The notes under the pieces: generated by a model
The model's input: only the letters and a program-made list of their open reading frames with translations
Told to the model about the DNA's origin: nothing
Databases searched by the model: none
Source of the DNA: a virus
IMG/VR virus record: IMGVR_UViG_3300032117_000118
Coordinates: 1 to 29,262 of that record
Strand: one strand, 5' to 3'
DNA length: 29,262 nt
Program-made: the position numbers and the translations under genes
Part shown: positions 2,697-29,262 of the stretch, piece after piece
Layout of the letters: each line of letters opens with the position of its first letter
Numbering within the stretch: the stretch's first letter is position 1

Positions 2697-3223
2697 GTAC
2701 CGAAGAGAAGAAGCCGCTGAAACTCGACATCGGGTGCGGCAAGAACAAGGCAGAAGGGTTTACGGGTGTCGATTCGATCGCCTTTGACGGCGTGGACATC
2801 GTCATGGACGCCAGTAAGCCGGACTGGCAGTGGGCGGATGGCGAGGTCGACGAAGTGCATTGCAGCCACTTCATCGAGCACCTGACCAACAACGAGCGCA
2901 TCGTGTTCTGGAACGAACTGCACCGCGTCCTGAAGAAGGGCGGTCAGGCTCGGATCATCACGCCGCACTGGTCGAATGCCTGCGCCTACGGCGATCCGAC
3001 CCACCAGTGGCCTCCCATGTCCGAGTGGGCGGTCTACTACCTGAACAAGGACTGGCGCGAGGTGAACGCCCCTCACGCCCCCCTGAAGTGCGACTTTGAC
3101 TTCGTCATTGGCGGCTCGTGGGATGGGTGGCTAGAGACCCGAAATCAGGAAATGAAGATGTTCGCGATGGGTCGCTACATCAATTCATACCGCGATTTGA
3201 TCATTACGCTCACCAAAAAGTGA
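2693..3223 (+). CDS. Class I SAM-dependent methyltransferase
   Basis: A 176-residue protein with SAM-binding motif I as LDIGCGKNK (11-19), an acidic residue at the end of strand 2 (GVDS, D27), and VDEVHCSHFIEHL (52-64), which is common in small Rossmann-fold methyltransferases. ATG at 2693 is chosen over upstream in-frame starts because GGAGG precedes it and it overlaps the dehydratase stop as ATGA. With the two upstream genes it forms a three-gene carbohydrate-type cassette, so a sugar or glycolipid substrate is plausible; nucleic acid or protein methylation cannot be excluded. It is the last gene before a palindrome and hairpin region. Confidence 0.82.
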   Translation: MSTEEKKPLKLDIGCGKNKAEGFTGVDSIAFDGVDIVMDASKPDWQWADGEVDEVHCSHFIEHLTNNERIVFWNELHRVLKKGGQARIITPHWSNACAYGDPTHQWPPMSEWAVYYLNKDWREVNAPHAPLKCDFDFVIGGSWDGWLETRNQEMKMFAMGRYINSYRDLIITLTKK

Positions 3224-3224
3224 A

Positions 3225-3239
3225 GTAATAGCCTATTAC
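3225..3239. promoter_or_regulatory. 15-bp palindrome, possible operator
   Basis: GTAATAG-C-CTATTAC is a perfect inverted repeat with seven-base arms and a one-base centre, two bases after the methyltransferase stop. It differs in sequence from the operator family of the right-hand early region. It may be a protein-binding site for control of the virion genes downstream, or simply the base of a larger RNA structure with the hairpin that follows. No regulator can be assigned. Confidence 0.4.
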
Positions 3240-3244
3240 GGTAT

Positions 3245-3270
3245 TCCCGGCGGTGGAAAAGCCGCCGGGA
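3245..3270 (+). terminator. GC-rich hairpin, possible terminator or RNA-processing structure
   Basis: TCCCGGCGG (3245-3253) and CCGCCGGGA (3262-3270) form a perfect nine-base-pair stem around the loop TGGAAAAG. There is no T-tract after it, so efficient intrinsic termination is doubtful. It separates the modification cassette from the connector gene at 3347. The remaining bases to 3346 contain TATGAT and TAGAAT hexamers without a convincing -35 at normal spacing. Confidence 0.5.
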
Positions 3271-3346
3271 GTGTGTATGATTTGGTAGGAAATTCTGAGA
3301 CTGGGGTAGAATTCCGAGCAGCATTCTTTCGCAATGGGGCGGGCTG

Positions 3347-4033
3347 ATGGCTACGAGCAACACATACGCCTTCAATCCGGGGCTTGGAGAGTCCACGCTC
3401 TATGCGTTCAATCTGTGCGGGATCCGGCAGTCTGCGCTACTTCAGGAGCACCTCGAAAGTGCCCGCATGGCGACGAACATGCTTCTGGGCCGGTGGAGCA
3501 GCCAAGGCGTTAACCTCTGGGCGGTAGACCTGCAATGCGTCAACCTGACGCAGGGCGTCTGCACCTACAGCGTGCCTTCCAACACCATCGTGATGTTGGA
3601 CGCCTACATCCGCCAGAGCACCGGCAGCGTCGTTGACCGCATCATCATGCCGATCAGCCGCACGGAGTACGCCTCGTACCCCAACAAGGCGCAGCAGGGC
3701 TTTCCGACGACCTTCTGGTTCGACCGCCTCCTGTCGCCCACCGTGACCCTCTGGCCCGTACCGGACGGCACCGTGTCCCAGTTGCGCTACTACCGCGTGC
3801 GTCAGATTCAGGACGGTGTCTTGGCCGACGACGCGCAGGTCGAGGTGCCGTACTACTTCTTGGAAGCCTTCGTCTTTGGCCTAGCCCAACGACTGGCGAT
3901 GATCTGGGCACCCGACAAGGTTGCCATGCTGAAGCCTCTGGCCGACGAATCCTATGCTATCGCTGCCGCTCAGAACATTGAGACCGCAGCCCAATATATA
4001 TCGCCCACGATCTCCTCCTACTTCAGGCCGTAA
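3347..4033 (+). CDS. Head-to-tail connector, P22 gp4-like
   Basis: A 228-residue protein whose N-terminal part (about residues 15-55: ALLQEHLESARMATNMLLGRW and the following SQGVNLW) matches the helical pattern of P22 gp4-type head-completion/connector proteins, which bind under the portal and help seal packaged DNA. The middle is beta-rich and the C-terminus helical (LEAFVFGLAQRLAMIWAP). It is longer than P22 gp4 (166 residues). It opens the virion block after a hairpin-containing gap. The start is ATG at 3347; the upstream GGGGCGGG is a poor match to a ribosome binding site. The portal gene, normally near, is not in the window. Confidence 0.7.
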   Translation: MATSNTYAFNPGLGESTLYAFNLCGIRQSALLQEHLESARMATNMLLGRWSSQGVNLWAVDLQCVNLTQGVCTYSVPSNTIVMLDAYIRQSTGSVVDRIIMPISRTEYASYPNKAQQGFPTTFWFDRLLSPTVTLWPVPDGTVSQLRYYRVRQIQDGVLADDAQVEVPYYFLEAFVFGLAQRLAMIWAPDKVAMLKPLADESYAIAAAQNIETAAQYISPTISSYFRP

Positions 4034-4036
4034 GCC

Positions 4037-4789
4037 ATGGGCTACGCCTCACGAGCAGGTCGGGCGAGGACGAATGCCGCCAACCCGCAAGCGCACGCTA
4101 TTTGCGACCGCTGCGGGTTTCGGTACAACTTCGTCGACCTGACGTGGCAGTTTGAGTGGCGCGGAGCCACCCTCCAGAACATCAAGATTCTGGTCTGCAA
4201 CACCTGTCTAGATACACCGCAGGAGAACGTCCGGGCCATTGTTATCCCGGCCGATCCGACGCCTATCGTCAACGCTCGCGTGCAGGACTTCGTCGCGGCT
4301 TCGACGGACGATATTGCCTTCGCGGGGTCCGTCATCGACCCGAAGACAGGCATCCCGATGCCGTCCCAGAGCGTTCTGGCCGACAATGCCGGGAACAATC
4401 TCGTGGTGCAGCCCATCGGCCCCAATCCGAATGGCGTGGGCGATGGCCTGACGCAGCAGGCGTTGATGCCTCAGTTTGAATCGACCGCCTACAGCGTCCT
4501 GCTGCCGGTGGCGTCGGTTCTGGCTAACGGGACGACCACGATTACGGTCACCTGTAGCGCCCCTCACGGCCTCTCGACCGGAGCGGCTATCTCGGCCCTC
4601 GGCCTGAGCAACAAGGCCGCAAACGGGTTCTACACGGTCACCGTGACCACGGCGACGGCGTTTACTTACCGGATCAGCCAGATTTCGCCCATCGCGGCGG
4701 GCTCCTTGCTGACCTCGACGACCCGAATCGTCACCGCCTATGTGACCGGCCCGTACAACTTCAACCAGATCCCGCAGACGGGTAACTAA
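4037..4789 (+). CDS. Zinc-ribbon-containing virion-type protein
   Basis: The 250-residue protein begins with a basic stretch and a CxxC...CxxC zinc ribbon (C23, C26, C54, C57). The C-terminal half, about residues 155-245, has a beta domain of the kind NGTTTITVTCSAPHGLSTGA, similar to a module in the nozzle-like protein at 8538. It lies three bases after the connector gene and just before small virion-type genes. Comparable zinc-ribbon proteins occur in tail regions of several phages, but I know of no assigned function. A structural or assembly role is inferred from position. Confidence 0.6.
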   Translation: MGYASRAGRARTNAANPQAHAICDRCGFRYNFVDLTWQFEWRGATLQNIKILVCNTCLDTPQENVRAIVIPADPTPIVNARVQDFVAASTDDIAFAGSVIDPKTGIPMPSQSVLADNAGNNLVVQPIGPNPNGVGDGLTQQALMPQFESTAYSVLLPVASVLANGTTTITVTCSAPHGLSTGAAISALGLSNKAANGFYTVTVTTATAFTYRISQISPIAAGSLLTSTTRIVTAYVTGPYNFNQIPQTGN

Positions 4790-8537: not shown

Positions 8538-10871
8538 ATGCCCCACTCAAGCGTAAAACTGAAGCCCGGAGTTGATCTTAACGAGACGCCCACCCTCAAC
8601 GAGGCGGGCTTTTCGTTCAGCAACCTTATTCGCTTCATCTACGATTCGACTTTGGGTGCCCTTATTCAAAAATTGGGCGGTTGGACGAAGTTTTACCCTT
8701 ATTCGTTCAGCCAAACCATTCGGGCTCTTTGGGCTTGGGAGACGACGCAGTCCGTGGCATTCCTTGCCATCGGTACGCAATCTCCAAGCCCTTCTACGGC
8801 GGCGTCTCTTTTGGTCATTCCGCAGGGTGGCAACTCTCAGGACATTACGCCGACCTATACAGTCAACAACATTGCGGCATCCGTTAACGCGCCAACGCTT
8901 GGAAGCCCGTACTTTGTCATCAATGACTCAGTCGTAACGGGCATCACCAGTTACGACTCTGTTTACATCGCGACGCACATCTCGGTGGGCGGCGTCATCC
9001 TTTTTGGCCTGTACCAATGCGATCCCAATGGGTATCTGAGTTCTGGCAGTTACTCTGTCATGGCCACGGACATCCTTGGCAATGCGATAGGCCCTAATCC
9101 GATCATAGAAGCCACTACGGCCGCGAGCGGCACAGGGTCCACGGCGACCATCTCTTTTGCCGCGCTGCCTGTAGCGCCTCCCGTGGGCTCTACCGTCACG
9201 GTAGGCGGCGGAATCTCCCCAAGCGGATATGCCGGTACTTATACGATAACGGCGTCGTCCACTACGTCTGTTTCGTACGCAAACACCACGACCGGCTCGC
9301 AGACGGTGGCGGGGACCATTTCCATCCTGAACGCGGCGTCTCTCGCGCAGTTCACGACGACATCCAACTCCTCCATCGTCACAGTGACCCTCCTGAATCA
9401 TGGCTATTCGGTGGGATCCACTTACCCCGTATTGATATCGACTTCGTTGAATGGCGTCACGCTGTACGGAAATTACATCGTTCAATCCGTCGTCAACGTG
9501 GATCAGTTCACCATCACCGTAGGCAATACGGCGACAGGAGCAGGATCCGCCTACATCAACGGCAATCAGGCTCGATACATTTACAATTTTGGCGTGGGCG
9601 CCATCCCTGCCGGTACCGGGTACGGCATTGGGACGTATGGCTCAGGGGGCTACGGAACAGGCACGGCCGTTACGCCGTCTACCGGGACAAAAATTGTCGC
9701 CTACGACTGGACGCTTGACAACTGGGGCGAGATTCTGATCGGCGTTGCCGTCAACGATGCGGGGTACAGCGGTACACCTTACTCGCCCATTTACGCATGG
9801 AACGGCTCAGGCGGATCGCCAACGGCAGTCACGATCCCCAACTGCCCTCCGGTCAATGAAGGCGTCTTTATGGCGATGCCTCAGCGCCAATTGGTTGCCT
9901 ACGGAACAACCTTTACGGGCATTCAGGATCCGCTTTTGATTCGTTGGTGCGACGTAAACAATTTCAGCGTCTGGGTTGGGCAGATTACCAATCAGGCCGG
10001 GTCCTACCGACTTCCCAAGGGCTCTAAAATTGTGGGGGCCATTCAGGGTCCTCAACAGGGCCTGATATGGACGGATATTGGCCTTTGGGCGATGCAGTAC
10101 GTCGGCACCCCCGACATTTACTCGTTCAACGAAATCGGATCGGGCTGCGGCTTGATTGCCAAGAAGGCTGCAGCGGCCCTTAACGGCATCGTCTATTGGA
10201 TGGGGCCATCGCAGTTCTACATGCTCTCTGGGAGCGGCGTAGAGCCATTGCCTTGCCCTGTCTGGGACGTGATCTTCCAGAACCTTGATCAGACCAACTT
10301 ATCCAAAATTCGCGTTGCGGTGAATTCGCGCTTTGGCGAGGTCAGTTGGTACTACCCGACGACGACCAGTAATGGCGAAGTATCAAATTACATCAAATTT
10401 AACGCTTACCTAAACGTCTGGGACTTCGGCTCGCTTGGAAGAACGGCTTGGATTGATCAGTCGGTTCTGGGACCGCCCATTGGTGCCGACCCTTCTTCTG
10501 GGTATATCTATCAGCATGAAACGTCTACAGACGCAGATGGACAGCCTTTGTTGGCGTCTTTTCAGACGGGTTACTTTGCTCTAAACGAAGGCGATCTGAA
10601 GACGTTTGTTGATCAAGTCTGGCCCGACATGAAGTGGGGTTACTACAACGGGTCGCAAAACGCGACGGTCAACCTGACTTTTTATGTGGCCGACTATCCG
10701 GGTCAAACGCCGATTCAGTATGGGCCCTATTCGCTAACTCAGCAGACAACCTTCATCACGCCAAGGTTTAGGTGCCGTCTCGTCTCGATAAGTCTTTCGA
10801 GTAACGATGTCGGTACTTTCTGGCGATTGGGTAACATCCGTTATCGAAGTCAGCAGGATGGTAAATTCTAA
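8538..10871 (+). CDS. Tail nozzle/hub-like protein
   Basis: A 777-residue beta-rich protein. The N-terminus (SVKLKPGVDLNETPTLNEAG, then SNLIRF and LGGWTKFYP) is a signature seen in podovirus nozzle or P22 gp10-like tail hub proteins. Residues about 190-340 hold inserted small beta modules (for example ISPSGYAGTYTITA and NHGYSVGSTYPV). The later part has Trp/Gly-rich blades (GGYGTGTAV, YDWTLDNWGEILIG, WCDVNNFSVW, GLIWTDIGLWAMQYVG) fitting a propeller-like fold. It lies three bases after the adaptor and overlaps the next gene by one base. It would form the DNA exit tube beneath the adaptor. No enzymatic site is visible. Confidence 0.75.
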   Translation: MPHSSVKLKPGVDLNETPTLNEAGFSFSNLIRFIYDSTLGALIQKLGGWTKFYPYSFSQTIRALWAWETTQSVAFLAIGTQSPSPSTAASLLVIPQGGNSQDITPTYTVNNIAASVNAPTLGSPYFVINDSVVTGITSYDSVYIATHISVGGVILFGLYQCDPNGYLSSGSYSVMATDILGNAIGPNPIIEATTAASGTGSTATISFAALPVAPPVGSTVTVGGGISPSGYAGTYTITASSTTSVSYANTTTGSQTVAGTISILNAASLAQFTTTSNSSIVTVTLLNHGYSVGSTYPVLISTSLNGVTLYGNYIVQSVVNVDQFTITVGNTATGAGSAYINGNQARYIYNFGVGAIPAGTGYGIGTYGSGGYGTGTAVTPSTGTKIVAYDWTLDNWGEILIGVAVNDAGYSGTPYSPIYAWNGSGGSPTAVTIPNCPPVNEGVFMAMPQRQLVAYGTTFTGIQDPLLIRWCDVNNFSVWVGQITNQAGSYRLPKGSKIVGAIQGPQQGLIWTDIGLWAMQYVGTPDIYSFNEIGSGCGLIAKKAAAALNGIVYWMGPSQFYMLSGSGVEPLPCPVWDVIFQNLDQTNLSKIRVAVNSRFGEVSWYYPTTTSNGEVSNYIKFNAYLNVWDFGSLGRTAWIDQSVLGPPIGADPSSGYIYQHETSTDADGQPLLASFQTGYFALNEGDLKTFVDQVWPDMKWGYYNGSQNATVNLTFYVADYPGQTPIQYGPYSLTQQTTFITPRFRCRLVSISLSSNDVGTFWRLGNIRYRSQQDGKF

Positions 10872-23489: not shown

Positions 23490-23677
23490 CCTTTTGCCTT
23501 CTTCAATTCCATCTGCAACTTCGCAATTTCTGCGGCGTGATGGTTGTTGTTCTTGCGCCAAGCCTCAAGCCCGTCTAGGTACGACTTCCGCAACTCGATG
23601 ATGACCTTTGCGGCATCTCTGGACGTTTCGTCGTTCCGCTCAAGCAGGCGGTCCACGATGTCGGGTCTGAGACTCAT
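23486..23677 (-). CDS. Small helical protein of unknown function
   Basis: A 63-residue, highly charged helical protein (IVDRLLERNDETSRDAAKVI, LRKSYLDGLEAWRKNNNHHA, EIAKLQMELKKAKG). Hydrophobic spacing suggests an amphipathic helix or coiled coil. Start and stop both overlap neighbours as ATGA. It sits between a ribbon-helix-helix regulator and a RuvC-like resolvase. It is not a recognisable toxin or antitoxin. Function unknown. Confidence 0.6.
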   Translation of the reverse strand: MSLRPDIVDRLLERNDETSRDAAKVIIELRKSYLDGLEAWRKNNNHHAAEIAKLQMELKKAKG

Positions 23678-23832
23678 GCTTGCACCTTCAGAAAGCGCCT
23701 GAGAGCCGCTACAACGACCTGTGAGGTCGACGGAGCCATAGCCCCACGGGTAGTCGCTTTCAGGGCCTTGTGGACCTCCGCAGGAAGCCTGACGCTGATT
23801 CGGCGGTCTGACGTGTCTGATTTGGATGACAT
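23674..23832 (-). CDS. Ribbon-helix-helix DNA-binding protein
   Basis: From ATG at 23832 the protein has 52 residues. RRISVRLPAEVHKALKA fits the DNA-contacting strand and first helix of the Arc/MetJ/CopG fold, and SQVVVAALRRFLKVQA the second helix. An in-frame TTG at 23868, preceded by AGGGG, would add 12 residues (MNFFFEKSILRL) and is a possible alternative start. Family members bind inverted repeats as dimers of dimers and often repress their own promoter. The gene is divergent from the early operon, and an operator-like palindrome lies in the gap. It is therefore the best candidate regulator for the five-site promoter family. Confidence 0.7.
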   Translation of the reverse strand: MSSKSDTSDRRISVRLPAEVHKALKATTRGAMAPSTSQVVVAALRRFLKVQA

Positions 23833-23876
23833 GAGGCGCAGGATGGACTTCTCGAAAAAAAAGTTCAATGCCCCTG

Positions 23877-23905
23877 TTGCATCTTAGGACGAAACGTCCT
23901 ATTCT
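23877..23905 (+). promoter_or_regulatory. Early promoter 1 with operator in spacer
   Basis: TTGCAT (23877-23882) and TATTCT (23900-23905) are separated by 17 bases. The spacer holds the perfect palindrome AGGACG-AAA-CGTCCT (23886-23900). TTCGTCCT at 23905-23912 repeats the right half with two extra bases and pairs with AGGACGAA, making a possible second half-site. The promoter would drive the genes from 23944 and its operator lies next to the divergent regulator gene. Confidence 0.7.
23881..23886 (-). promoter_or_regulatory. Possible -10 of the divergent minus-strand promoter
   Basis: On the minus strand TAAGAT would give a transcript entering the ribbon-helix-helix gene, and it directly abuts the 23886-23900 operator. 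The -35 at 17-base spacing (ACGAAG) is a poor match to TTGACA, so the assignment is tentative. Confidence 0.3.
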
Positions 23906-23920
23906 TCGTCCTGCCCGATT

Positions 23921-23933
23921 TATCTACCTATCT
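23921..23933 (+). repeat. Leader element TATCTACCTATCT
   Basis: A member of the TACC-repeat leader family found before four early genes; here one of the units is changed to ATCT. It is followed at once by GGAG (23934-23937) and the ATG at 23944. Confidence 0.55.
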
Positions 23934-23943
23934 GGAGAGCCTC

Positions 23944-24324
23944 ATGAAACTTGGAACCGAAACCGGCAGCGTCATCAACCACCTGTACTCGCGCATGGTC
24001 GTTGGCGAGCCGACCCCTGCCGTCGGCATGGGCGTCACCCTGCTGATGTGGACCGACCGCGCTGCGGGCACCATCGTCGAGATCCGTGGCAACGTGCTCG
24101 TCGTCACCGAAGATGAAGTCAAGCGCGTCGACAACAACGGCATGAGCGAATCGCAGCAATACCAGTTCACGACCAACCTGCGTGGCCGCAAGTCCTACTT
24201 CAAGAAGGACCGTAAGGGCATGTGGGTCGAGCACTGCTACAACGACAAGGGCCGCTTGGTGATTGCGCGTGGCTGCGGCCTGCGTGTCGGCGAGCGCGCC
24301 CACTACCACGACTTTTCGTTCTAA
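23944..24324 (+). CDS. Conserved phage-type early protein, unknown function
   Basis: A 126-residue protein, first gene of the plus-strand early region. Its sequence (NHLYSRMVVGEPTPAVGMGV, TLLMWTDRAAGTIVEI, RVDNNGMSESQQYQF, then GRKSYFKKDRKGMWVE and RVGERAHYHDFSF) reads as a compact beta-rich domain. I recall related proteins as a family common in phage genomes without known function. GGAG is six bases before the ATG. It probably shares promoter 1 with the five genes that follow. Confidence 0.7.
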   Translation: MKLGTETGSVINHLYSRMVVGEPTPAVGMGVTLLMWTDRAAGTIVEIRGNVLVVTEDEVKRVDNNGMSESQQYQFTTNLRGRKSYFKKDRKGMWVEHCYNDKGRLVIARGCGLRVGERAHYHDFSF

Positions 24325-24334
24325 GGGGAATGCT

Positions 24335-24601
24335 ATGAACATCGCACATGGCAAGAGCATCTCTTTCAACGAGAAGGGTGAAGTGGAGATCCGCCTGTAC
24401 ACGGCGGGTCAGCAGGTCGAGTACGTCGATGGCGATTGCAAGGTCCGCGCTCGTCGCGGTTGGGTGACCATCACCATCGACGCTGACCAGTTGGCGCGTG
24501 ACTCGTCGAACACTTTCTTCTTCTCCAAGTCTGCCACGTCGCGTCGCGTGCGTGGCGCGATCAAGATCAAGGCCGATAAGCCGACCATTCAGGAGTTTTG
24601 A
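24335..24601 (+). CDS. Small early protein of unknown function
   Basis: An 88-residue, beta-rich basic protein (SISFNEKGEVEIRLYTAGQQ, VEYVDGDCKVRARRGWVTIT). ATG at 24335 is chosen because AAGGGG lies upstream and the longer in-frame reading overlaps the preceding gene with no ribosome binding site. The C-terminal part is Lys/Arg-rich (SRRVRGAIKIKADKP). It may bind nucleic acid, but no specific motif shows this. Confidence 0.6.
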   Translation: MNIAHGKSISFNEKGEVEIRLYTAGQQVEYVDGDCKVRARRGWVTITIDADQLARDSSNTFFFSKSATSRRVRGAIKIKADKPTIQEF

Positions 24602-24603
24602 TC

Positions 24604-25002
24604 ATGGACTTCAAAAAGGACCCAATCATTCAGGTGTACTCATACGAGTGGCTGCGCGACACCGGCCACAACCGCGAGGGCACTCAGGTCATCGTCGCCG
24701 ACTTTTACGTCGCCTTCGAGACCCACTCGGGCCGTCGCTTCCGCCACAACCACGGCTTCATCGGCCGTGTCGAGCACGACGACCTCGACTTCTTCCCGTG
24801 GCCGGTCCACGGCGATAAGGCGGCCGCCGAGCGCCTTGCCTCGCGCATCGAGAGGCATCTTGCGCTGGGCGGCACCGTCAACCTCGATTTGTGGTGCGAG
24901 CAGGATCCGGCGTACGGCTCAAGCGCGTACGAGGATCTGGATCGCACTGGCTTCTTCCGCCAGCGCGAAATCGCAGAAGACCGTCAGGCAATGTGGAGAT
25001 GA
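24604..25002 (+). CDS. Early protein of unknown function
   Basis: A 132-residue protein with ATG at 24604, eight bases after AGGAG; a TTG at 24598 overlaps the previous stop and is less likely. It contains aromatic and His-rich segments (SYEWLRDTGHNREGTQVIVA, RRFRHNHGFIGRVEHDDLDF, FPWPVHGDKAAAERLASRIE) and an acidic C-terminal part (LDLWCEQDPAYGSSAYEDLD). It looks like a small soluble alpha/beta protein. No family is recognised. Its stop overlaps an ATG of the next gene. Confidence 0.6.
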   Translation: MDFKKDPIIQVYSYEWLRDTGHNREGTQVIVADFYVAFETHSGRRFRHNHGFIGRVEHDDLDFFPWPVHGDKAAAERLASRIERHLALGGTVNLDLWCEQDPAYGSSAYEDLDRTGFFRQREIAEDRQAMWR

Positions 25003-25004
25003 TC

Positions 25005-25280
25005 ATGCAAGCAATCAGAACAAAGTACATCGGCCCGACCGACACCAAGGGGTCGCGCATTCAGGCCAAGTGTGAGGTCAAGACGATCTACCTGCCGTAC
25101 GACTGGGCTCTCGACAGCGACGACAACCACCGCAAAGCGTGCAACGCTCTGCGTGTGGTCATGGGATGGTTGCCGTCAGCAGGCCGCATCTACGACGCGC
25201 CCATGGTCGGCGGCTGGTTCGACGGCTGCATTTACTGGGTTTGGAAAAACGAATTTCTCGATACGGAGGCACTGTCATGA
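25005..25280 (+). CDS. Small conserved-looking protein, unknown function
   Basis: A 91-residue protein (MQAIRTKYIGPTDTKGSRIQ, AKCEVKTIYLPYDWALDSDD, then NHRKACNALRVVMGW and GGWFDGCIYWVWKNEF). The opening IRTKYIGPTDTKGSRI is a motif I associate with small proteins widespread in phages and mobile DNA. ATG at 25005 has GGAG six bases upstream; ATG at 24999 is too close to that site. Function is unknown. The stop overlaps the next start. Confidence 0.65.
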   Translation: MQAIRTKYIGPTDTKGSRIQAKCEVKTIYLPYDWALDSDDNHRKACNALRVVMGWLPSAGRIYDAPMVGGWFDGCIYWVWKNEFLDTEALS

Positions 25281-25516
25281 AAGAGATGATCGGTAAGCAG
25301 ACGAAGAAGCGTTACGTCTTCCAGTCGGAGGCGGACCTGATGGACCACCTGATGGCCGACGACAGCGTCGGCTTCTGCATCCGCTGCGGTCACGAGCACC
25401 ACGGCATCAAGCCCGACGTCGACAACGCCAAGTGCAAGGAGTGCGGCAACAACGGCGTTTTCGGCGTCGAAGAGTTGCTCGTGCGCGGTCTGCATCACTT
25501 GGACCCGCTCACATGA
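25277..25516 (+). CDS. Small zinc-ribbon protein
   Basis: A 79-residue protein with two Cys pairs, CIRCG (C34, C37) and CKECG (C53, C56), which should bind one zinc ion. The N-terminal half is charged and helical (TKKRYVFQSEADLMDHLMAD). GGAGG lies seven bases before the ATG, and the start overlaps the upstream stop as ATGA, as does its own stop with the HTH gene. It could bind nucleic acid or act as an adaptor on a host protein; neither can be shown. Confidence 0.7.
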   Translation: MKEMIGKQTKKRYVFQSEADLMDHLMADDSVGFCIRCGHEHHGIKPDVDNAKCKECGNNGVFGVEELLVRGLHHLDPLT

Positions 25517-25701
25517 CGCCCGCACAGCAGTCTCAATTCATCCGGTCGGCCCTGACCAAGATGGGCGTCACGCAAGCCGCCATGGCGCGTTCTCTGGGCG
25601 TCTCAGAGCGCACCGTAAGGCGGTGGGTCAGCGGCAAGCAGGCGGTGCCCGCGCCCGTCATGGTCGCCATCAAAACTATTTTCAAGGAAGTGTTGCAGTA
25701 G
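25513..25701 (+). CDS. Cro/XRE-type helix-turn-helix regulator
   Basis: A 62-residue protein with a clear HTH: MGVTQAAMARSLGVSERTVR (17-36), followed by RWVSGKQAVP, the usual recognition helix and turn of the XRE/Cro class. At this size it is DNA-binding domain only, like Cro. Its stop codon TAG lies in the -35/-10 spacer of promoter 2. It is therefore a second candidate regulator for the early operator family, or a switch acting elsewhere in the genome. Confidence 0.82.
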   Translation: MTPAQQSQFIRSALTKMGVTQAAMARSLGVSERTVRRWVSGKQAVPAPVMVAIKTIFKEVLQ

Positions 25702-25721
25702 GACAAAATGTCCTGTAGCAT
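25693..25721 (+). promoter_or_regulatory. Early promoter 2 with operator in spacer
   Basis: TTGCAG (25693-25698) and TAGCAT (25716-25721) at 17-base spacing flank the perfect palindrome AGGACA-AAA-TGTCCT (25700-25714). The palindrome overlaps the stop of the HTH gene. The promoter would drive 25765-26536. Confidence 0.7.
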
Positions 25722-25734
25722 CCGGGTTGTCGAT

Positions 25735-25745
25735 TACCTACCTAT
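25735..25745 (+). repeat. Leader element TACCTACCTAT
   Basis: Two TACC units follow TTGTCGAT, a combination also present in promoters 3 and 4. The ribosome binding site CGGAG follows ten bases later, before ATG 25765. Confidence 0.6.
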
Positions 25746-25764
25746 CTTATTTCGGAGCCTCAAA

Positions 25765-26109
25765 ATGGACACAGCAAGCATCGTCTACCTGCACGACATC
25801 AGCGAGCAGGAAATCTTTGAAGTCACCAACCCGGTTGACGAACTGGGCCGCATCCGCGCTGAGATTGCGGCGCTCAAGGAATCTGAGGAGCGCCTGATCG
25901 CCCAGATCAAGGAAGCGGGCGTCGGCGCTTACGACGGTGTGGCGTACCGCGCCACGGTGTCGGAAGTCGCGCCCCGCGAGTCCTACGACACCAAGGCGAT
26001 GGAAGCCAAGTTGCGCGACATGGGCGTGGACAACCGTTGGTTCATCCACAACACCAAGACCACCGCCGGGTACGTCACCGTGCGCGTCTCGGCCCGCAAG
26101 TCGAAGTGA
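25765..26109 (+). CDS. Early coiled-coil protein, Gp157-like in pattern
   Basis: A 114-residue protein with ATG at 25765 placed by CGGAG. After an N-terminal segment comes a helix with heptad spacing (DELGRIRAEIAALKESEERL, IAQIKEAGVGAYDGVAYRAT), then EVAPRESYDTKAMEAKLRDM and the strand TAGYVTVRVSARK. The helix followed by a G-Y-A-T strand and a K-T-x-x-Y-V-T-V ending recalls small phage proteins of the siphovirus Gp157 type. That name is resemblance only. Function is unknown; association with DNA-repair proteins is known for some coiled-coil early proteins. Confidence 0.6.
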   Translation: MDTASIVYLHDISEQEIFEVTNPVDELGRIRAEIAALKESEERLIAQIKEAGVGAYDGVAYRATVSEVAPRESYDTKAMEAKLRDMGVDNRWFIHNTKTTAGYVTVRVSARKSK

Positions 26110-26117
26110 GGTGCAGC

Positions 26118-26327
26118 ATGGCCAAGATCAAATGGATCAAGTTCCCCAACGCGCCTCGCGGCGCTTGGGTGAGCGAGTGCGGCAAGTTCGCAATCGACCC
26201 CGTCTACGTTTGGCTGTACAGCAAGCAGATCGACGGGAGCCGGTTGTTCGTCAAGGGCCGACGCGACCTGTATGGCGAATACAAGTCGGTCACGGAAGCC
26301 AAGCGTGCAGCGGAGGGCATCAAGTGA
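26118..26327 (+). CDS. Small early protein
   Basis: A 69-residue basic protein with many aromatic residues (IKWIKFPNAPRGAWVSECGK, FAIDPVYVWLYSKQIDG) and a Lys/Arg-rich end (SRLFVKGRRDLYGEYKSVTE, AKRAAEGIK). The strand pattern and the final helix suggest a small beta-beta-alpha fold. GTG 26324 of the next gene overlaps its stop, indicating coupling. The family is not recognised. Confidence 0.6.
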   Translation: MAKIKWIKFPNAPRGAWVSECGKFAIDPVYVWLYSKQIDGSRLFVKGRRDLYGEYKSVTEAKRAAEGIK

Positions 26328-26536
26328 AATCCACGAACCACATGGGCGTTGATCAGTTCAACCAAGTCGTCACCAAGCCTCGCAAGGAATGGGTGCTGAT
26401 CAAGAAGCGCATCGAAATCGAAGGGGGCCGTTCGCGCACGATGCGCGAGCGTGACGGCAGCGTGACGCTGATCGTCAACAGCCTTGACCGGGTGGGTGAC
26501 CGCCCGGCAGTCGTCGTCGAAATTTTCAACTGGTGA
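26324..26536 (+). CDS. Small early protein with GTG start
   Basis: A 70-residue protein. GTG at 26324 is chosen because GGAGG lies seven bases upstream and it overlaps the preceding stop. It is basic and rich in short strands (KEWVLIKKRIEIEGGRSRTM, RERDGSVTLIVNSLDRV) and ends RPAVVVEIFNW. It is the last gene before promoter 3. Function unknown. Confidence 0.55.
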   Translation: MKSTNHMGVDQFNQVVTKPRKEWVLIKKRIEIEGGRSRTMRERDGSVTLIVNSLDRVGDRPAVVVEIFNW

Positions 26537-26546
26537 CCAACATGTG

Positions 26547-26576
26547 TTGACAGGGCGAAAGGCCCTGTCGCACAAT
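26547..26576 (+). promoter_or_regulatory. Early promoter 3 with extended palindrome
   Basis: TTGACA (26547-26552) and CACAAT (26571-26576) are separated by 18 bases. The operator AGGGCG-AAA-GGCCCT (26552-26566) is part of a longer inverted repeat, GACAGGGC and GCCCTGTC (26549-26556 and 26562-26569), which takes in the last four bases of the -35 hexamer. If transcribed from upstream it would form an eight-base-pair hairpin, so it might also end the preceding operon. Confidence 0.68.
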
Positions 26577-26590
26577 TCGCTTGTCGACAC

Positions 26591-26601
26591 TACCTACCTA
26601 T
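26591..26601 (+). repeat. Leader element TACCTACCTAT
   Basis: It is identical to the element at 25735-25745 and again lies after TTGTCGA. GGAG follows at 26611-26614, before ATG 26621. Confidence 0.6.
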
Positions 26602-26620
26602 TTGGAATTTGGAGATACAC

Positions 26621-27037
26621 ATGGCATATCGCATCACTCGCAACGAAGAAATCAAGATCGAAGATTACGTCATGAAGATTCGCGTGCATCACGACACGGT
26701 TTTTTCGGCCATTCAGGCGCTGAACGCCAAGATGGAGGAGGAGGCCCTCAAGGTCCGCGCCGCCATCGACGCCCTTGACGCCGTCAAGACTGAAGCCGCC
26801 GGGTTCCTTGAGGACATCCACCGGGAACACGAGGAGACCTTCGACTTGGCCGACGAGAAGTGGCAGGAATCCAATCGCGGTCAGGCCGTTCGCGACTGGC
26901 TCGACGAACTGGCCAGTCAGGTGCAGAACTTGGAGTCGGTTACCGACTGGGAAGCCCCAGAAGAGTCGGACCCCAACGACCTCGAAAACCCCGCCGGTCT
27001 CCTGTCCGACCTGTACCTCTCGCCGGAAGCCCTCTAA
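26621..27037 (+). CDS. Acidic coiled-coil early protein
   Basis: A 138-residue protein (ATG 26621; TTG at 26609 overlaps the GGAG site and is unlikely). The first 30 residues contain strands and then a long helix (FSAIQALNAKMEEEALKVRA, AIDALDAVKTEAAGFLEDIH) rich in Glu and Ala, with coiled-coil spacing. The C-terminal region is strongly acidic (DWEAPEESDPNDLENPAGLL). It stands alone between promoter 3 and a strong hairpin, so it is probably a monocistronic unit. Acidic phage early proteins sometimes mimic DNA or bind host enzymes; that is speculation here. Confidence 0.62.
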   Translation: MAYRITRNEEIKIEDYVMKIRVHHDTVFSAIQALNAKMEEEALKVRAAIDALDAVKTEAAGFLEDIHREHEETFDLADEKWQESNRGQAVRDWLDELASQVQNLESVTDWEAPEESDPNDLENPAGLLSDLYLSPEAL

Positions 27038-27052
27038 CCCTAACCAAAAACC

Positions 27053-27083
27053 GGGGGAGCCGTCTCTCGTAGGCGTCTCCCCC
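27053..27083 (+). terminator. Terminator-like hairpin after the acidic coiled-coil gene
   Basis: GGGGGAG (27053-27059) and CTCCCCC (27077-27083) form a perfect seven-base-pair GC stem with a 17-base loop that can pair partly. A T-tract is absent (TAAAATTAG follows), so termination may be incomplete. It ends the promoter 3 unit just before promoter 4. Confidence 0.55.
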
Positions 27084-27095
27084 TAAAATTAGTTG

Positions 27096-27125
27096 TTGAC
27101 AGGGTGTTTCACCCTACCCCATAAT
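27096..27125 (+). promoter_or_regulatory. Early promoter 4 with operator in spacer
   Basis: A consensus TTGACA (27096-27101) and CATAAT (27120-27125) with 18-base spacing make this the strongest-looking promoter of the set. The perfect palindrome AGGGTG-TTT-CACCCT occupies 27101-27115. It would drive the helicase gene. Confidence 0.75.
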
Positions 27126-27143
27126 CCAACCCGTCGATTGTTT

Positions 27144-27158
27144 TACCTACCTACCTAT
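27144..27158 (+). repeat. Leader element with three TACC units
   Basis: TACCTACCTACCTAT has one more unit than the leaders of promoters 2 and 3. CGGAG follows four bases later, and the ATG is at 27176. Confidence 0.6.
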
Positions 27159-27175
27159 TTCGGAGATCTTTCAAC

Positions 27176-28654
27176 ATGAACGCAGTCGCCACCGCAGTCG
27201 CCACCGCAGTCGCCACCGCCACCCGCTCGTGGTCCCCGTACCAGTCGTCCATCTTCGACTTCGTCGAGAACGGCACCGGCAACGCTGTCGTCGAGGCCGT
27301 CGCGGGCAGCGGCAAGACCACAACCCTCGTCGAGGCCTTCAACCGCATCAAGGGCAACGCCGTGTTCTTGGCCTTCGGTAAGGCCATCGCGACGGAGTTG
27401 GTCAGTCGCGGCGTCAACGCCAAGACCTTCCACTCGCTGTGCTTCAGCCCGGTGCTCCGCTTCTGCGGCATCAACAACATCGACAAGGACAAGTTGCGCC
27501 GCATCATCGCCGACAACCTGACCGACGCCGACGTCCGCACCTACGGCGCGTTCATCAACGAACTCGTCAAGTTGGCCCGCGAAGCCGGTGTCGGCTGCCT
27601 CGTCGAGGACAGCGAGCAGGTCTGGCTTGATATCGCCGAGCACCATGACCTTGAAGTCGAGGGCGACATGGCTCGCGCCATCCACCTCGCCCGCCGCCTG
27701 CTGCAGGCGTCGAACGAGTCGCCCGAGTGCGACTTCACCGACCTCCTGTACCGCTCGGTTCTGGAGGGCATCAGCCTGCCGAAGTTCGACTTCGTGTTCG
27801 TCGACGAGGCGCAGGACACCAACGCCATTCAGCGTGCGATCCTCCGCAAAATCTCGCACGCAGGCACCCGAATCGTCGCCGTCGGCGACCCGCGCCAAGC
27901 GATCTACGGCTTCCGTGGCGCCGACAGCCGCAGCCTCGACCTGATCACCGAGGAGTTCAACGCCATCCGCCTGCCGCTGACCGTGTCGTACCGCTGCCCG
28001 AAGTCGGTCGTCGCCTTCGCCCGCCAGTGGGTGTCGCACATCGAGTCCGCCCCGGCGGCCGCCGAAGGCGTTGTGGGCAACCTCGGCACCGAATGGAACG
28101 GTGCCATGTTCGACCCAACCGACCTGATCATCTGCCGCACGACCAAGCCCCTCGTGGCTCTGGCGTACCGCATGCTCCGCAGCGGTCAGGGCTGCAAGAT
28201 CCTCGGCAAGTCGATCGGCGAGGGCCTGCAGCGCCTGATCACCCGCATGAACGCCAAGGGCATCGACGCGCTCGTCGAGAAACTGCGTAAGTGGGAAGAG
28301 CGCGAGGTCGAGAAGGCCAAGGCTCGCGGCAACGAGGCCAAGATCGCCGCCATCCAAGATCAGGCTGAGTCGATCCTCTGCCTCATCGAGAGCCTGCCTG
28401 AGACCGACCGTACGGTCCCGGCGCTGCTCCGCCTGCTCGACACCATCTTCGATCAGGAGCGCGGCGTGACGACCCTCGCGACGATCCACAAGGCGAAAGG
28501 CTTGGAAGCCGACCGCGTGTATTGGCTCAACAGCAGCCAGTGCCCGTCCAAGTGGGCGCGCAAGGACTGGCAGAAGGAGCAGGAGGCCAACCTGTGCTAC
28601 GTCGCCGCAACCCGCGCCAAGGCGGAGTTGTACCTCATCGAGGAGGAGCGCTGA
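27176..28654 (+). CDS. UvrD/Rep-like SF1 DNA helicase
   Basis: A 492-residue ATP-dependent helicase with superfamily 1A motifs in order. These are motif I EAVAGSGKTTT (40-50, K47), Ia-like VFLAFGKAIA, and motif II FVFVDEAQDTN (D210-E211). Motif III is VGDPRQAIYGFRGAD (236-250), and motif IV VSYRCPKSVV. Motif V is TIHKAKGLEADRVYWL and motif VI LCYVAATRAKAELYLI. It is shorter than host UvrD (about 720 residues), as many phage helicases are. The N-terminus carries the in-frame repeat AVAT three times. It would unwind DNA in phage replication or recombination. Confidence 0.92.
   Translation: MNAVATAVATAVATATRSWSPYQSSIFDFVENGTGNAVVEAVAGSGKTTTLVEAFNRIKGNAVFLAFGKAIATELVSRGVNAKTFHSLCFSPVLRFCGINNIDKDKLRRIIADNLTDADVRTYGAFINELVKLAREAGVGCLVEDSEQVWLDIAEHHDLEVEGDMARAIHLARRLLQASNESPECDFTDLLYRSVLEGISLPKFDFVFVDEAQDTNAIQRAILRKISHAGTRIVAVGDPRQAIYGFRGADSRSLDLITEEFNAIRLPLTVSYRCPKSVVAFARQWVSHIESAPAAAEGVVGNLGTEWNGAMFDPTDLIICRTTKPLVALAYRMLRSGQGCKILGKSIGEGLQRLITRMNAKGIDALVEKLRKWEEREVEKAKARGNEAKIAAIQDQAESILCLIESLPETDRTVPALLRLLDTIFDQERGVTTLATIHKAKGLEADRVYWLNSSQCPSKWARKDWQKEQEANLCYVAATRAKAELYLIEEER
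27182..27217 (+). repeat. 12-bp tandem repeat, three copies, at the helicase start
   Basis: GCAGTCGCCACC occurs three times without change and a partial fourth unit follows. Each unit encodes AVAT, so gains or losses keep the reading frame. The repeat begins two codons after the start codon. Confidence 0.85.
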
Positions 28655-28663
28655 TCGACCCAG

Positions 28664-28692
28664 TTGACGGGGAGGGTGTTTTATCCCATACT
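28664..28692 (+). promoter_or_regulatory. Early promoter 5, diverged operator plus long inverted repeat
   Basis: TTGACG (28664-28669) and CATACT (28687-28692) are spaced by 17 bases. The spacer has AGGGTG-TTT-TATCCC (28673-28687), a half-conserved form of the operator. A perfect ten-base inverted repeat, TGACGGGGAG (28665-28674) and CTCCCCGTCA (28693-28702), encloses the site. The leader lacks TACC repeats. It may be under different or additional control. Confidence 0.6.
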
Positions 28693-28731
28693 CTCCCCGT
28701 CAGACATTTCAGACAACCGATGGAGACCCTC

Positions 28732-29028
28732 ATGACCTCTTTTGCATCAATCGAAAATTCTTACGAGGCGCGCGCGCTCAACGCCCACCTTTCGGGCCCG
28801 GACACGACGTACGCGCAGTACCTTGAGGAAAACGACTTGCCTCCTTTCGAGTACACGCTCCTCGACGAGGAACGCAACGACTTCCGCTGCCGCGCCAAGG
28901 ACGGCTCGGTCCACGAGGACCACGACTGGAAGGCTGACGGCCGCTGCAGCCGCTGCGTGTGGATGCTCCACAGTTTCTGGGTCGCCCAAGGCGGGATGAC
29001 TGAAAAAGAGTTTGAGCAGGAATTCTGA
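28732..29028 (+). CDS. Small Cys-containing early protein
   Basis: A 98-residue acidic protein (ATG 28732 with GGAG six bases upstream; ATG 28720 overlaps that site). The motif FRCRAKDGSVHEDHDWKADG followed by RCSRCVWMLHSFW holds C53, C72 and C75 with nearby His residues, a possible small zinc site with one irregular ligand. The N-terminal part is helical (SYEARALNAHL, YAQYLEENDLPPFEY). It is the first gene after promoter 5. Function unknown. Confidence 0.6.
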   Translation: MTSFASIENSYEARALNAHLSGPDTTYAQYLEENDLPPFEYTLLDEERNDFRCRAKDGSVHEDHDWKADGRCSRCVWMLHSFWVAQGGMTEKEFEQEF

Positions 29029-29029
29029 C

Positions 29030-29236
29030 ATGGCAATGGAACACGAATATCAATTGGCGAATCGCGTGGAACTCTTGGAGGACCACGCTTTCACGATGGC
29101 GAATCAGATCGAGGTCCTGCGCCGGGCTCTGCGCGAATGTGCGGAGCACATCGAGACCGCGCCGGGCCTTAACACTCGTGGCGTGATGGTGGCCTACGCC
29201 GCACGCCGCATTCTTTCAGGAGAATACGGACTGTGA
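29030..29236 (+). CDS. Small helical early protein
   Basis: A 68-residue protein with an amphipathic helix (YQLANRVELLEDHAFTMANQ, IEVLRRALRECAEHIETA) and the ending RGVMVAYAARRILSGEYGL. AGGA lies eight bases before the ATG at 29030; a second ATG at 29036 is possible. Heptad-like Leu/Val spacing suggests a coiled coil. Its stop overlaps a GTG (GTGA) that may start the next gene. Function unknown. Confidence 0.55.
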   Translation: MAMEHEYQLANRVELLEDHAFTMANQIEVLRRALRECAEHIETAPGLNTRGVMVAYAARRILSGEYGL

Positions 29237-29262
29237 CTTTGCACCCACCACACAAGCGCCCG
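29233..29262 (+). CDS. Possible start of a further gene, cut by the window end
   Basis: GTG at 29233 overlaps the preceding stop as GTGA, the junction type used at 26324. Only ten codons (MTLHPPHKRP) are visible before the window ends, so the gene is inferred from the junction alone. Confidence 0.3.
   Translation, partial: MTLHPPHKRP

Follow-up and report, generated by a model that had tools for sequence, protein, structure and literature searches.

Early leaders of the window phage

The window, the DNA analyzed here, comprises the 29,262 bases of one virus record; most of the genes scanned in it have no family matches. The product of its UvrD-like helicase gene (27176 to 28654) is 57 to 59% identical to the helicases of Nipunavirus (Queuovirinae) phages, and therefore the phage is, judged from this protein, a distant relative of that group.

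Predicted sigma-70-type promoters lie upstream of all five leaders considered here (P1 to P5, plus strand); here and below, all promoters and start sites are predictions from sequence. Those of P3 (26547 to 26576; TTGACA and −10 CACAAT), P4 (27096 to 27125; TTGACA and −10 CATAAT), and P5 (28664 to 28701; TTGACG and CATACT) have recognizable −10 boxes. The promoters of P1 (23877 to 23905; TTGCAT and −10 TATTCT) and P2 (25693 to 25721; TTGCAG and −10 TAGCAT), both with a spacing of 17, are weaker predictions that fall below a strict promoter scan.

Each of the first four promoters has a perfect palindrome between its −35 and −10 boxes: TAGGACG-AAA-CGTCCTA in P1 (23885 to 23901), AGGACA-AAA-TGTCCT in P2 (25700 to 25714), GACAGGGC-GAAAG-GCCCTGTC in P3 (26549 to 26569), and AGGGTG-TTT-CACCCT in P4 (27101 to 27115), with shuffle P values of 0.0025 to 0.03. 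The symmetry is constant and the sequence varies (arms GGACG/CGTCC, GGACA/TGTCC, GGGC/GCCC, and GGGTG/CACCC); at P4 of the relative G001, described below, half of the palindrome has altered, and another pairing is seen (GACAGG/CCTGTC). These spacers may be operators or hairpins. An N4-type hairpin promoter was considered and dropped, since TTGACA and −10 boxes are present and the phage appears not to be N4-like. Candidate regulators acting on the palindromes are the product of a Cro/C1-type helix-turn-helix (HTH) gene that ends just before P2 (25513 to 25701) and that of a weakly supported ribbon-helix-helix-like gene on the minus strand, divergent from P1 (23674 to 23832). An inverted repeat (GACGGGGAG/CTCCCCGTC; 28666 to 28701) encloses the P5 promoter; it is kept in G001 with a changed sequence (GGACAGGCGGA/TCCGCCTGTCC) and may be the terminator of the helicase gene, overlapped by the promoter that follows.

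Between promoter and start codon, four of these leaders carry a clear TACC-containing element, and all four precede the first genes of predicted early transcripts. In P1, TATCTACCTATCT (23921 to 23933) directly precedes the SD GGAG (23934 to 23937) and an ATG at 23944. The P2 element, TACCTACCTATC (25735 to 25746), lies between GTCGA (25729 to 25733) and the SD (25754 to 25757; ATG at 25765), and the P3 element, TACCTACCTAT (26591 to 26601), between GTCGA (26583 to 26587) and the SD (26611 to 26614; ATG at 26621). The P4 element, TACCTACCTACCTAT, has three units (27144 to 27158) and stands in front of the helicase gene, with GTCGA at 27133 to 27137, the SD at 27162 to 27165, and the ATG at 27176. 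P5 has a degenerate element, GACAACCGAT (28712 to 28721), followed by GGAG (28722 to 28725) and a likely ATG at 28732. The order in P2 to P4 is −10, 6 to 7 nt, GTCGA, 1 to 6 nt, TACC units, 6 to 12 nt, GGAG, and ATG. Because GTCGA follows the predicted −10 by about 6 to 7 nt, it is placed at or next to the predicted +1 in these three leaders. Apart from TACC and GTCGA, sequence differs among the five cassettes.

The first-pass annotation had reported repeats at 23921, 25735, 26591, and 27144, between the predicted transcription start and GGAG and in three cases preceded by GTCGA. The coordinates are right, the location is borne out for these four clear copies (relative to predicted start sites), and GTCGA is seen at P2, P3, and P4. 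Its count of two or three TACC units per leader applies to P2 to P4 but not to P1, which has one exact TACC and reads TATCTACCTATC.

These copies exceed what the window would contain by chance. Allowing one mismatch, TACCTACCT matches the window 10 times, whereas 1.3 matches are expected and none of 100 shuffles gave more than 4; TACCTACC occurs 4 times on the plus strand (0.08 expected) and not at all on the minus strand. TACCTAY is found at four places in the window, each in a sense-strand leader between a predicted promoter and GGAG; when overlapping matches on both strands are counted, all eight fall inside these four leaders, which make up 0.4% of the two strands. Equal occurrence in non-leader DNA, which the first-pass annotation had named as a refutation, is thus not what the window contains, and the repeat is a real leader element of this phage. 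A possible further copy with a weaker match, AACCTATCTAAGGA, lies at 1676 to 1694 on the plus strand, before a gene that is not early (ATG at 1695). It has no recognizable promoter, is not conserved in G001, and may be a chance occurrence.

Conservation in relatives and recurrence in other phages

The relative G001 is a 63,726-base record with about 75 to 88% DNA identity to the window in the main aligned blocks, and it holds orthologous P1, P2, P4, and P5. Its P2 leader reads GTCGATTTTATCTACCTACCTATTTCGGAG and its P4 leader reads GTCGAGTTACCTACCTACCTACATCGGAG; in both, the TACC units are kept (three at P4, as in the window), and the spacing and flanking sequence are changed. Free variation among close relatives, the other outcome that would have spoken against the element, is therefore not seen at these two leaders. 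The P1 leader of G001 reads GTCGATTAACAACCTATCTGGAG, with AACAACCTATCT at the place of the element; the exact TACC is lost, and GTCGA is present. The P3 leader and the whole P3 promoter are missing from G001. The fifth leader had been described as lacking the element, which holds only in part: the window retains a degenerate form there (G001 P5 reads GACCTACCTACTGGAG; the window counterpart reads GACAACCGATGGAG), and the orthologous leader reads GACCTACCTAC in both G001 and G004, with the element present in G001 as ACCTACCTAC. A further contig is 99.99% identical to the window and provides no independent evidence. Overall, the TACC-repeat leader element is probably functional.

The element does not extend throughout the wider helicase clade. 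TACCTACC was not found in three full Nipunavirus-like records, and no such cassette was found around the helicase of the other relatives; the idea that the element was already present in the common ancestor of the Queuovirinae-like helicase clade was rejected on these grounds. In the leaders of 34 unselected helicase relatives, ACCTA is mildly enriched, by about 3-fold (5 versus 1.5 expected). Among the most enriched leader 5-mers at these 34 loci (L005 to L042) are TTAAC and TAACC, possibly another leader motif (TTAAC, 14 versus 2.0 expected).

Recurrence outside the lineage was assessed in viral contigs with a promoter-anchored pattern (TTGACR-N32-56-TACCTACCTA-N0-10-GGAG) and, as a control, the same pattern with the motif reversed. 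The scan returned 26 loci with the motif and 24 with the reversed motif. After removal of duplicates (by eye) and of the window's own group, noncoding leaders of the form GGAG-N5-9-ATG accounted for 7 of the 16 distinct sites, versus 1 of 17 in the reversed control (Fisher P = 0.015); with one coding match included, the comparison is 8 of 16 versus 1 of 17 (P = 0.006). By this count, the element is present in about seven other independent phage lineages. Loose viral scans returned mostly chance matches in coding sequence, and a match was counted as evidence only if inspection by eye confirmed a leader. Two leaders first came to light in such scans. L234 carries GTCGAGTTGATTAGTACCTACCTACCTATTGGAG before a gene that by eye resembles the P2 gene, and ATCGATTWATTACCTACCTATGGAG is present at three loci (L098, L310, and L313).

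The first 20 kb of one phage, G014, match nothing closely in the phage collection; this phage carries six genes with ACCTA ahead of GGAG or AGGA; its 13 SD-bearing leaders contain 6 ACCTA, versus 0.27 expected. Smaller sets of such leaders are found in G012 and G016, the latter with the variant ACCTAAC, and ACCTA is the top-ranked or a near-top 5-mer over all leaders of G014, G012, G016, and G001. G012, G014, and G016 were each chosen via one copy, so that their enrichment is overstated and their P values are overly favorable.

Other promoter and leader features were seen in these and further phages. On the plus strand of L098, near 9970 to 10020, the promoter TTGACATCTAAGGACGCCTCGCCCTAAT is closely like that of window P1 (AGGACGAAACGTCCTA), and the other genes of that phage look unrelated. 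In the record of L310 (G008, minus strand, near 3943), a promoter spacer has the palindrome CTAGGGC..GCCCTAG, and the leader has repeated TTTTA units directly 5′ of TTGGAG. In a different phage (L353, around 2928 to 4230, and L354), several early leaders form another repeated kind; a 5′ stem-loop that varies between them (GTAGC..GCTAC and ATAAGC..GCTTAT) begins each leader, ahead of GGAG.

Bacterial chromosomes gave a different result. About 600 genomes were scanned, drawn from the order and the phylum to which an Acidovorax genome belongs, a choice that was a guess and may not match the host. In these, TACCTACC-N0-12-GGAG-N5-9-ATG was overall no more common than the reversed pattern, and most of the bacterial matches listed lack a further TAT. 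With no enrichment over the reversed motif in these genomes or in one separate genome scan, a leader element of host chromosomes was rejected.

Possible roles of the element in early mRNAs

The element lies 11 to 25 nt after the −10, and its last ACCTA starts 5 to 15 nt before GGAG and 15 to 25 nt before the ATG; such variable placing is expected if the element is flexible and single stranded. In the window group, all nine leaders are predicted to fold less stably than most genomic-substitute versions (fraction as weak or weaker, 0.00 to 0.11). The motif is predicted to be 54 to 91% unpaired, versus about 44%, and the SD itself is often paired, as a standby model expects. Some copies are without a good promoter within 60 nt, for example one in G014 and several in G016. 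The flexible distances, the weakly structured leader, and the copies that lack a promoter together favor an RNA-level translation-initiation element, a ribosome standby site or enhancer, over a DNA site of fixed position, and we give this reading about an even chance of being correct. The first-pass annotation had offered a regulator site, a stability or standby element, and a DNA site. A role in RNA or translation is favored among these because the spacing is flexible, the leader is unstructured, the sense orientation is fixed, and the element recurs beside SDs in unrelated phages; no regulator protein was identified.

As a standby site or enhancer, the element could work as follows. Host RNA polymerase would start at or near GTCGA and produce a leader of about 30 to 45 nt that is almost free of G between its first few bases and the SD, and the UACC units would remain single stranded. 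The last ACCUA would then sit where mRNA exits the 30S platform beside ribosomal protein S1, a putative contact. The ribosome would land on the UACC stretch and then open the weakly folded SD, and the outcome would be strong expression of early genes in a phage of high GC content, presumably through increased translation. Against this reading, P1 and P5 drift, and therefore not every leader strictly needs the element. Low leader structure could also come from G-poverty alone, with no need for the TACC sequence. The selection of G012, G014, and G016 through one copy each and the mild enrichment of ACCTA in unselected phages also count against it.

Alternatively, the UACC repeats might be recognized by a small RNA or by a specific RNA-binding protein of phage or host origin that switches early translation on or off, with affinity depending on the number of units. 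The helicase leader retains three units in both relatives, the element is common to several leaders of a single phage, as in a regulon, and the reversed-motif control favors sequence rather than mere composition. However, no candidate RNA-binding protein was recognized among the scanned window genes, most of which lack family matches, and recurrence in unrelated phages would require a common host factor. The complement TAGGTAGG is absent outside the leaders from either strand of the window, which counts against a small RNA and led us to reject a trans-acting antisense RNA encoded in the window. We consider recognition by such a regulator unlikely.

The element also travels with a promoter in most window copies, so a role in transcription is possible: the site could bind a phage transcription factor just downstream of +1 or tune promoter escape as part of the initial transcribed sequence. 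All four clear window copies follow predicted promoters, with GTCGA at +1 and palindromic spacers, and the HTH and ribbon-helix-helix-like genes adjoin P2 and P1, respectively. However, the −10-to-element distance is variable, the element is never upstream of a −35 or reversed in the window, and copies in other phages sometimes lack a good promoter, and we regard a DNA site as quite unlikely. There is also a slim chance that UACC repeats are a translation signal found only in phages and common to unrelated ones, a tag that lets a factor made or modified by the phage guide ribosomes to early phage mRNAs and that host genes do not carry.

An mRNA-stability or 5′-end feature, in which an unstructured, G-free leader would resist or direct RNase cleavage, appears very unlikely. 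The leader is G-poor and near the 5′ end, and hairpins would lie just upstream in read-through transcripts, but no conserved stem was found at the 5′ end, and single-stranded A/U-rich leaders usually favor RNase E entry over protection. Least probable of all is a promoter-leader cassette with no function of its own, copied around the genome while TACC grew by slippage in a G-free spacer; tetranucleotide repeats do slip, spacing differs between the window and its relative, and some copies drift, but the five cassettes differ outside TACC and GTCGA, and the element recurs in unrelated phages where the equally slippery reversed repeat does not.

Comparison with known leader signals

The TACC-repeat leader sequence looks previously undescribed. 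Rfam 15 covariance models gave no match up to an E value of 5 in 23600 to 29262, and a literature search for the element sequence gave no phage or leader paper among the papers listed. The nearest in kind is the Start-Associated Sequence (SAS/ESAS) of cluster K mycobacteriophages, a short asymmetric repeat found in essentially one orientation before nonstructural genes with long intergenic gaps (PMC3203893). It is not host chromosomal, it has inverted repeats just upstream in about half of the cases, and a role in translation has been proposed, its function being unknown (PMC3203893). The sense orientation of all four window copies before the first genes of predicted early transcripts is similar. 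However, the 13-bp SAS consensus, GGGATAGGAGCCC, includes the SD, is located 3 to 7 bp upstream of the start, and is found mostly in a single phage cluster (PMC3203893), whereas the window leaders read TACCTACCTAT..GGAG, the TACC repeat is upstream of the SD with its last ACCTA 15 to 25 nt before the ATG, and it occurs in unrelated phages. As for the inverted repeats upstream of some SAS sites, P1 to P4 have palindromes, which sit inside the promoter spacer and vary in sequence.

The nearest demonstrated mechanism is that of ACA motifs upstream of the SD, which enhance translation, tolerate shifts in position, and occur in several copies in some mRNAs (yifK and dppA); they are known in Salmonella mRNAs targeted by the small RNA GcvB (PMC3879156). 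The window element is likewise position tolerant upstream of the SD. However, its common motif is TACC, with ACA only sporadic (e.g., in P3 and P5), and the demonstrated activity is that of ACA. Because the consensus and, for SAS, also the position differ, the element is a member of neither class. The T7 gene 10 leader also has an enhancer upstream of the SD (PMC8748333). As phage leader enhancers upstream of the SD, that leader and S1-binding pyrimidine-rich leaders are similar in kind to the TACC element and different in sequence. To our knowledge, neither contains a repeated TACC; a link of the TACC element to S1 is presumed.

The main new fact beyond the first-pass annotation is that the element recurs outside the lineage of the window phage. 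If the standby or enhancer reading is true, several unrelated environmental phages have settled on one short leader for early protein synthesis that is uncommon before host genes. It would provide a simple sequence with which to study the competition of phage mRNAs for ribosomes, a case comparable to the SAS of mycobacteriophages, themselves unexplained, and possibly an enhancer module for expression in GC-rich bacteria.
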